From contig JAFGKT010000075.1 of NCBI GenBank assembly GCA_016928435.1, positions 1 through 64,000 of the forward strand: a DNA stretch of 64,000 bases, given 5' to 3'. Origin of the DNA: Sedimentisphaerales bacterium (GTDB taxonomy: Bacteria; Planctomycetota; Phycisphaerae; Sedimentisphaerales; SM23-30). Position numbers and translations under genes: made by a program. This document shows, in pieces, positions 16,090-21,255 of the stretch. The notes beneath the pieces were generated by a model, which was not told the DNA's origin, made no database searches, and worked only from the letters and a program-made list of their open reading frames with translations. Each line of letters begins with the position of its first letter. Position 1 is the stretch's first letter.

Positions 16090-16782
16090 CTATTGCCTTC
16101 TGCCCCTGCCGCGATTAGGCTGTACAGGATTGGGTTCCGGTTCAAAACCAAACATACCTCTGTATATCCACACTTTGATACCGATGGCACCATAAGTCGT
16201 AACCGAAACAGCCAAGCCATAATCAACATTGGCTTGCAGCGTCTGCAGAGGAATCGAGCCAAGAATCTGGGTTTCTCGACGAGCCAATTCAGCTCCGCCA
16301 AGTCTGCCACCACAAATAATCTTCACACCCAACGCGCCGGCAGCCATAGTATTTTCGCAATGCTGTTTCATCAAACGTCTAAACGCACCACGACGCTTAA
16401 GCTGCTCGGAGATAGACTCAGCGACAAGCTGGGCATCCAGATCAGGATGCTTCACTTCCATAACATTAACATTAACGCGACGATCGATAAGGTCTTCAAG
16501 TTCTTCTCGCAGACGGTCGATTTCGGCGCCTTTGGGGCCGATCACCAAACCAGGACGTGCGGTATGCAACGTTACTTTAACATCATCACGAGTTCGTTCG
16601 ATTTCGGTCTTGGCAATCGCAGCATATGGCGGCTTACGATTGAGACGGTCATCTACAAACGCACGAATCTTCTGGTCTTCCACAAGAAACTCGCCGAATG
16701 CTGCCTTTGGGGCAAACCAGCGACTTTTCCAACCTAATGTAATGCCGGTTCTAAAACCGATCGGTGATACCTTTTGGCCCAT
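16090..16782 (-). CDS. rpsC: 30S ribosomal protein S3
   Basis: This 230-residue uS3 has the N-terminal MGQKVSPIGFRTGITLGW, a KH type 2 domain (about 40-110) and the C-terminal domain with KIICGGRLGGAELARRE. S3 forms part of the mRNA entry tunnel and helicase. It lies directly downstream of the unusual rplV. Confidence 0.97.
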   Translation of the reverse strand: MGQKVSPIGFRTGITLGWKSRWFAPKAAFGEFLVEDQKIRAFVDDRLNRKPPYAAIAKTEIERTRDDVKVTLHTARPGLVIGPKGAEIDRLREELEDLIDRRVNVNVMEVKHPDLDAQLVAESISEQLKRRGAFRRLMKQHCENTMAAGALGVKIICGGRLGGAELARRETQILGSIPLQTLQANVDYGLAVSVTTYGAIGIKVWIYRGMFGFEPEPNPVQPNRGRGRRQ

Positions 16783-16821: not shown

Positions 16822-17370
16822 TTAGTCTTGATCGACGCTCACATGAATATGGCTAGCCAACCGGGTAAACGACACGGCACGGCCTCGATCTTTTGGACGC
16901 CAACGACGAGTACCCTGACGAATACCGCCTTCATCAACTCTAGCTTCGGAAACATAGAGGCGTTCAACATCAGCCTCTTGTTCATCAGCGTTAGCGATAG
17001 CGCTACGCAATACTTTATCTATCATAACCGCGGCTCGCTTGTTAGCGAACTTGAGTACATCCAAGGCATCCTGTACGTTACGATCCCGAATGAGATCGGC
17101 AACTAAACGCACTTTGCGGGGCGCCATTGGAGCATAATAATGGGAAGCGCGCCAAACGATTAAGTCTTGATGAGTCACGTTGAGGGCACGGGCTATACGG
17201 TCGATATCAGAGCGTTTGGGTTTAGGAGAGAGAAGTCCTCTTTCCCAATTGCCAATAGCGGTTTTCATATCGGCGGCGGAGCGGCCTCTTTCGGCGACTG
17301 CCTCAGCCAATTGGCCCACGGACATCCCGGCGGCTTCACGGCTTTTTTTCAATTTACTTGCACTTAGCAT
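16822..17370 (-). CDS. rplV: Ribosomal protein L22 fused to an N-terminal XRE-type helix-turn-helix domain
   Basis: Residues from about 73 to 182 are a complete uL22: WRASHYYAPMAPRKVRLVAD, then KVLRSAIANADEQ and the loop GGIRQGTRRWRPKDRGRA that lines the exit tunnel. A normal bacterial L22 has about 110-120 residues; this one has 182. Residues 1-72 look like a Cro/C1 (XRE) helix-turn-helix: LKKSREAAGMSVGQLAEAVA, IGNWERGLLSPKPKRSDID and RIARALNVTHQDL. The two parts share one frame with no stop, and no separate ATG with a good ribosome site marks the L22 part. The fused domain could bind rRNA, its own mRNA or DNA; its role is unknown. Gene order (rpsS-rplV-rpsC) is normal. Confidence 0.92.
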   Translation of the reverse strand: MLSASKLKKSREAAGMSVGQLAEAVAERGRSAADMKTAIGNWERGLLSPKPKRSDIDRIARALNVTHQDLIVWRASHYYAPMAPRKVRLVADLIRDRNVQDALDVLKFANKRAAVMIDKVLRSAIANADEQEADVERLYVSEARVDEGGIRQGTRRWRPKDRGRAVSFTRLASHIHVSVDQD

Positions 17371-17423: not shown

Positions 17424-17693
17424 TTATTTCTTCTTAGAACCAGCGTGACCTCGGAAAGTTCGCGTTGGAGAAAACTCGCCCAGTTTATGGCCGACCATTT
17501 CTTCAGTGACATAGACTTTGTTGAAGATTTTGCCGTTATGCACCATAAACGTAAAGCCGACAAATTCCGGAACGATAGTGCAACGACGAGCCCAGGTTTT
17601 CATAGGCTCATGGCCGCCGGATTCCTGTTGCTTCACGACCTTACGAAACAATTTCTCGTCAACGAAAGGTCCTTTCTTAAGCGATCGACCCAT
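17424..17693 (-). CDS. rpsS: 30S ribosomal protein S19
   Basis: This 89-residue uS19 starts [19 protein letters not shown] and ends [18 protein letters not shown]. It is part of the 30S head and forms an intersubunit bridge. The ribosome site GTTAG-TATG region is weak, but the start matches the family. A 93-base gap with a small TTACCG-ATAT-CGGTAA hairpin separates it from rplB. Confidence 0.97.
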
Positions 17694-20831: not shown

Positions 20832-21255
20832 GCAACTACTCCCAAGATTTTTTTCAAGCCTAAGTGCCAGGTAGCCCAAAATCGAGCAAAACAGCCAACC
20901 CAACGGCGATATCAGTACTAAACGTCAGTAATTAGACGATTTATAAAGACCCGTAAGTTTAACAGCTAAACCTACGGCGTCAACCAAAAAAAGCGATAAA
21001 AAGCAGTCCAAAATGATCTTCACGGGCTTTTTTGAGATTCAAGCCTGCCCAATGTTGTTACCGAGGCCTTGAAATAGACCTGGTAATTATCCGAGATCTA
21101 GCGGCGAGGTGGCCGATTTAGGGCCTGCCGCCACGACTGTCGGTCCATCCTTGGACTGTAAATAGAGAAGAAATCAACTTGCACTATCGCAGTAACATCC
21201 TGTTTCTGCTCGCTTTGGTCGAAGAGTAAGAATTTAGCAGAGGATTAAAAATCTG
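20832..21255. other. Long fusA-rpsJ spacer
   Basis: This 424-base stretch has no gene I can support. It holds an inverted repeat CCGTA-GTTTA/TAAAC-TACGG at 20951-20977, overlapping a possible minus-strand promoter (20956-20983), and several T-rich segments on the minus strand. A leader for rpsJ is the simplest reading. Confidence 0.45.
20956..20983 (-). promoter_or_regulatory. Possible promoter of rpsJ
   Basis: On the minus strand TTGACG (20983-20978, 5/6 to consensus) is followed after 16 bases by TAAACT (20961-20956, 4/6). An inverted repeat spans the same bases. The leader to the GTG start would be about 120 bases. Confidence 0.35.

Follow-up and report, generated by a model that had tools for sequence, protein, structure and literature searches.

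Ribosomal protein uL22 occurs universally and forms part of the wall of the protein exit tunnel, and L22 extensions as such are already known. For example, in Mycoplasma pneumoniae the L22 extension forms an ordered structure on the ribosome (PMC9534751). Helix-turn-helix (HTH) domains of the Cro/C1 type are also found on ribosomes: that of EDF1/Mbf1, a factor said to be absent from bacteria, is sandwiched between helices h16 and h33 of 18S rRNA (PMC7486125). The literature that we searched contained no account of an HTH domain fused to L22, nor of the structure of a Planctomycetota ribosome, and the fusion that we describe here is therefore one for which we found no published report.

Our analysis of the window, i.e., the whole 64,000-nucleotide stretch of Sedimentisphaerales DNA under study, demonstrated that rplV is present as a single copy in its usual place in the S10 operon, in the order rpsS, rplV, rpsC, and that its frame starts with ATG and runs for 182 codons with no internal stops. 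The features of this locus are as follows, in coordinates of the window:

16822 to 17370, minus strand: rplV gene, encoding an XRE-like domain and ribosomal protein uL22 (182 amino acids plus stop)
17155 to 17370, minus strand: XRE/Cro-C1-type helical domain, residues 1-72 (HTH_3, HTH_31, AlphaFold, Foldseek)
17296 to 17319, minus strand: helix 2 of the N-domain, residues 18-25, with the usual Gln absent at position 18 (DSSP of the model, column counts)
17242 to 17277, minus strand: helix 3 of the N-domain, the recognition-helix equivalent, residues 32-43, with the invariant N41-W42 (model, column counts)
16825 to 17154, minus strand: complete uL22 core, residues 73-182 (Pfam PF00237 over residues 75-179, 98.6 bits; Foldseek)
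17424 to 17693, minus strand: rpsS (uS19), the upstream neighbour of rplV
16090 to 16782, minus strand: rpsC (uS3), the downstream neighbour of rplV

The first-pass annotation, made from the sequence, had described an uninterrupted frame of 182 residues between rpsS and rpsC that combines a Cro/C1 HTH in residues 1-72 with a complete L22 at the C-terminal end, and our search confirms each part of this description. The frame and both neighbours are as described, residues 75-179 match the Pfam Ribosomal_L22 family (PF00237) at 98.6 bits (2.7e-28, with a cut-off of 28 bits), and the protein matches the NCBIfam model rplV_bact (TIGR01044) at 96.6 bits (cut-off 73.65); all of the 50 aligned members of the family match a uL22 profile (TIGR01044 or PF00237). 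When the whole protein from the window was scanned, HTH_3 scored 25.3 bits, above its cut-off of 23, and HTH_31 scored 26 bits, below its cut-off of 27, and when residues 1-72 were scanned alone both profiles exceeded these cut-offs (29.3 bits for HTH_3 and 29.1 bits for HTH_31), so that the HTH profiles are not silent on this part of the protein. Two of five further N-domains also scored above cut-off (HTH_31 at 34.5 and 30.9 bits, both in the family that we label f10) and three scored below, and among 50 members at E<=0.01 we observed matches to HTH_31 in 12 and to HTH_3 in 8. The domain in the window is thus a member of the XRE/Cro-C1 profiles, with membership weak across the family as a whole. 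No Pfam domain was found N-terminal to the HTH in the window protein, i.e., the HTH is the start of the protein.

An AlphaFold model of the whole protein, built with 81 sequences, has a mean pLDDT of 91.8 and a pTM of 0.82, and the N-domain modelled alone has a pLDDT of 93.5. DSSP places helices in the model at residues 4-14, 18-25, 32-43 and 53-63, with a short helix at 67-69, and the first strand of L22 directly continues helix 5 with no spacer between the two domains; as modelled, the protein is a uL22 with an XRE-fold domain rigidly attached at its N-terminus. Foldseek matched the N-domain to C.BclI, C.Csp231I, C.AhdI, SinR, P22 c2, 434 Cro and DdrO in the PDB with a probability of 1.00 and a TM to query of 0.64-0.74, and the top matches were all XRE or controller proteins or enzymes with an XRE domain; the E-values are only 0.01-0.1, as expected because the query is a helical domain of 74 residues. 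The predicted N-domain has the five-helix lambda-repressor-like fold, and the whole model matches ribosome-bound uL22 with a TM of about 0.9 to target. The HTH picture of the first-pass annotation is therefore right as to the fold, but not as to a textbook turn, since the connection between helix 2 (18-25) and helix 3 (32-43) is longer. Four loci of the window's family (L004, L007, L010 and L011) carry 6-14 additional residues in or near this link.

The fusion is present in every sampled Sedimentisphaerales genome with an rplV match. Of 40 sampled relatives, 39 gave a match to the rplV protein, almost all aligned end to end; two (L036 and L037) aligned from residue 32 only, yet contain the domain. 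A scan of named genomes, in which other phyla were covered through one pattern taken from the L22 core and the genomes are a sample, identified at least 80 species with an intact N-domain and an identically placed ATG, many of them titled Sedimentisphaerales. One locus titled Candidatus Kuenenia stuttgartiensis (L109, CAMDDF010000002.1) has a fused rplV of the Sedimentisphaerales type and groups with Sedimentisphaerales, and its title is apparently wrong. Using the Sedimentisphaerales N-domain as a profile, we also recovered family f10, which belongs to another order of the window's class, with E-values from 1e-12 to 1e-15 and in every case at rplV; the start codon there is GTG or ATG at an unchanged position. 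A combined profile placed the domain in 98 of the 251 genomes from this second order, in families f10 and f25; among the matches listed, none was from f20, f22, f24 or f112. In one f25 genome (L267, G445) the N-domain is split across two reading frames while the L22 part is still open, which may reflect a frameshift from sequencing error, a programmed shift or decay. Between the rpsS stop and the L22 core lie 266 nt in the window, 214-381 nt in fused genomes and about 0-103 nt in unfused relatives. Most genomes in our class-wide and phylum-wide samples lack the fusion, including the sampled other classes and many families of the window's own class, and this rules out a phylum-wide trait; a spread through Planctomycetota, which had been raised at the outset, was not borne out, with the fusion confined in the genomes sampled to parts of one class.

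Genomes of the phylum, searched with the domain profile, yielded no convincing homologue that stands alone: matches near 1e-3 outside rplV were partial and lay inside large open frames, and in the window's genome and the other fused genomes the rplV copy alone was matched. The linkage to L22 is obligate in these genomes, and the domain therefore appears to work only within L22.

The N-domain is conserved as a coding sequence. No stops occur in it across 81 genes. In the 199 unsaturated pairs that were compared, dN/dS has a median of 0.27 in the N-domain and 0.10 in the L22 part; by this measure the N-domain is under purifying selection. A chance reading frame or an annotation artefact is ruled out by the conservation, the dN/dS and the fixed start. 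A set of 50 sequences, with f10 and f25 among them, shows no variation at M1, N41 and W42. At the junction, all of 81 Sedimentisphaerales sequences have W73, in place of which f10 and f25 have Phe. Basic residues recur in the column counts at K6 (100% K/R), K8 (75%), R27 (81%), K40 (86%), K44 (88%), K48 (81%) and R58 (72%). Overall the domain carries a modest net charge, which averages +2.9 and varies from -4 to +9. In an alignment made here, in which positions 18, 36 and 37 are equated with Gln17, Gln28 and Gln29 of the 434 repressor, position 18 is mostly V/I/A/L, with Gln outside its six commonest letters, and positions 36-37 are mostly V/A/I and A/S/T, i.e., small or hydrophobic, and variable. 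As judged from these columns, the domain does not conserve the polar residues with which DNA is read, neither the helix 2 Gln nor a polar N-terminal half of helix 3. The L22 part of Sedimentisphaerales proteins carries a three-residue insertion (GGxRxGT) in the beta-hairpin extending into the exit tunnel, at about residues 148-156 (minus strand, about 16903-16929 in the window); this insertion is untied to the fusion, since it is absent from f10 and f25 and some unfused Planctomycetota show an insertion at this site.

On a tree of linked ribosomal proteins, Sedimentisphaerales and f10 form two distinct clades, with support of 100 and 99, respectively, and a single clade of fused species is ruled out (p-AU 3e-52). 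The N-domains fall into three groups that match their hosts, and, compared by sequence, those of Sedimentisphaerales and f10 are clearly homologous. Because the junction, the long link between helix 2 and helix 3 and the NW motif are shared, we read this as one fusion event, after which the domain was probably either lost several times or passed on once, long ago, by lateral transfer. A phage donor was considered and rejected, with only weak matches (E 0.03) to CI-like repressors of Staphylococcus phages.

The reading that we favour, with a confidence slightly better than even, is that the N-domain is a lineage-specific module of the ribosome surface that contacts rRNA or neighbouring exit-site proteins. 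We infer that rplV gives one protein of 182 residues, uL22 with a rigid N-terminal XRE-fold domain. In Sedimentisphaerales and two families of the related order, this protein would be permanently built into the large subunit. The N-domain would lie on the solvent face of the 50S subunit near the tunnel exit, where its conserved basic residues and invariant Asn may contact 23S rRNA or adjoining exit-site proteins, the nucleic-acid-binding face of the fold being used for RNA in place of operator DNA, in a structural or docking role. Binding to RNA or to a fixed surface fits better than binding to an operator because the basic face is kept and the base readers are not. A lineage-specific contact on the ribosome, one of the ideas of the first-pass annotation, is compatible with all of the evidence, although no change in 23S rRNA tracks the fusion: among 14 complete or nearly complete genomes compared using part of the E. 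coli 23S as query, we found no length or base signature that does so, and no matching RNA partner. Compensation for a deletion or expansion of 23S rRNA is ruled out, since in these 14 genomes none separates fused from unfused. One of the loci (L255, G015) has roughly 290 extra 23S bases near E. coli positions 1861-1880, possibly an intervening sequence or intron. In addition, no change in the exit-site proteins trigger factor, peptide deformylase, bL32 and bL17 tracks the fusion, and a replacement of any of these four is ruled out, as all are present in fused and unfused genomes. These negative results count against a surface module, as does the net charge of the N-domain, which is lower than is usual for rRNA-binding tails.

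The N-domain could instead stay outside the ribosome, with L22 used at its ordinary length following an internal translation start or cleavage. Many fused genes do contain in-frame internal start codons, e.g., a GTG at -9 codons in the window, and the enrichment of Shine-Dalgarno-like 4-mers before the N-terminal ATG is only modest (40 of 80, with 26.5 expected). However, the rplV genes of unfused relatives begin near codon -1 or -2 relative to the L22 core, and in the 81 fused genes no start codon is conserved at these positions; 10 of the 81 have no ATG, GTG or TTG at all from -12 to +8 codons of the core, so that some species can hardly translate L22 except as the fusion, which may yet be cleaved later. 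With the purifying selection on the N-domain, its freedom from stops and a start fixed in at least 80 species also against it, we regard this explanation as very unlikely. Ribosomal proteins often autoregulate, which counts in favor of autogenous regulation, an idea already put forward at first pass, whereby surplus free L22 would bind, through its XRE domain, the promoter DNA or mRNA leader of the S10 operon and halt expression. The N-domain has the phage repressor fold by Foldseek, and upstream of rpsJ in the window, directly after a TTGAC box, lies a near-perfect inverted repeat of 27 bp, CCGTAGGTTTAGCTGTTAAACTTACGG (minus strand, window 20951-20977); a second locus of the window's family (L095) carries a palindrome of another sequence, CATAGCGATCTTTCGCTATG, at the matching place. 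These two promoter palindromes are a lead only. The inverted repeats that precede rpsJ at 67 loci of the order vary widely in both place and sequence, only 9 of the 67 surpass the 95% level of shuffles, and an operator common to the order was not found there; no Rfam leader was found and no dimer interface was identified, and the positions that usually read DNA are not kept polar. The fold and the two palindromes thus speak for autoregulation, the missing common operator and the DNA-reading positions that are not kept polar speak against it, and on balance we consider it improbable.

Protein docking comes second after a contact with rRNA or a fixed surface, because uL22 is among the proteins around the rim of the tunnel exit (PMC5071890) and, in E. 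coli, provides the principal site at which peptide deformylase docks (PMC3130931; PMC5452302). The N-domain would here be a recruitment platform that binds a protein factor beside the tunnel exit, its conserved surface being a protein-protein interface, and the candidates would be deformylase, methionine aminopeptidase, a chaperone, SRP or the membrane. Deformylase and trigger factor are, however, present in fused and unfused genomes alike, the deformylase tails, where readable, are of similar length (30-34 residues in fused and 30-35 in unfused genomes), and no lineage-specific partner was identified; we hold recruitment, taken as a whole, to be rather unlikely. A tether by which the N-domain holds the ribosome to DNA or nascent mRNA, and so couples transcription with translation, would suit a nucleic-acid-binding fold with a conserved basic patch, but the residues that read sequence are not kept, the gene context gives no pointer and the tether is a speculative addition to the surface-module model, which makes it extremely improbable. 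Stated more broadly, it is fairly likely that a repressor-fold domain is permanently stationed at the tunnel exit, binding rRNA or factors in the manner of a covalent EDF1/Mbf1, or else that L22 is the repressor of its own operon.

If a surface module is indeed what the N-domain is, a fold that binds DNA can be taken up as a permanent part of the ribosome across whole bacterial lineages, which bears on the diversification of the exit-site surface, where nascent-chain factors dock, among bacteria, and on the survival of domain fusions in genes thought to be too constrained for change.

Compared with bacterial uL22 in general, the protein in the window has the same complete core, and its gene the same single copy and place between rpsS and rpsC; it differs in 72 additional N-terminal residues that form a globular XRE-fold domain. 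This domain shares with the Cro/C1 proteins SinR, C.AhdI, P22 c2 and 434 Cro four long helices with a short fifth, an NW..G...P motif after helix 3 and scores around the gathering cut-off, and differs from them in a longer connection between helix 2 and helix 3, a longer helix 3, the lack of the conserved helix 2 Gln, recognition-helix positions that are not polar at the N-terminal end, and, throughout the genomes searched, its constant fusion to a ribosomal protein. EDF1/Mbf1 and archaeal MBF1 likewise have a Cro/C1-type HTH and, given its link to uL22, the N-domain probably resembles them in binding the ribosome; these proteins, however, are separate small-subunit factors that are recruited to collided ribosomes and have an MBF1 or zinc-ribbon N-domain, whereas here the HTH would be a covalent part of the large subunit with no such domain ahead of it. 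The extensions of S6, L22 and L29 in M. pneumoniae (PMC9534751) offer a uL22 with a lineage-specific extension that is ordered in the ribosome, and NCBIfam PRK12279 is named an 'L22/unknown domain fusion'; the match to PRK12279 spans the L22 part alone, at the N-terminal end of the model, and the added part of PRK12279 is therefore C-terminal. In contrast to both, the extension described here lies at the N-terminus and can be recognised as a domain belonging to another protein family.
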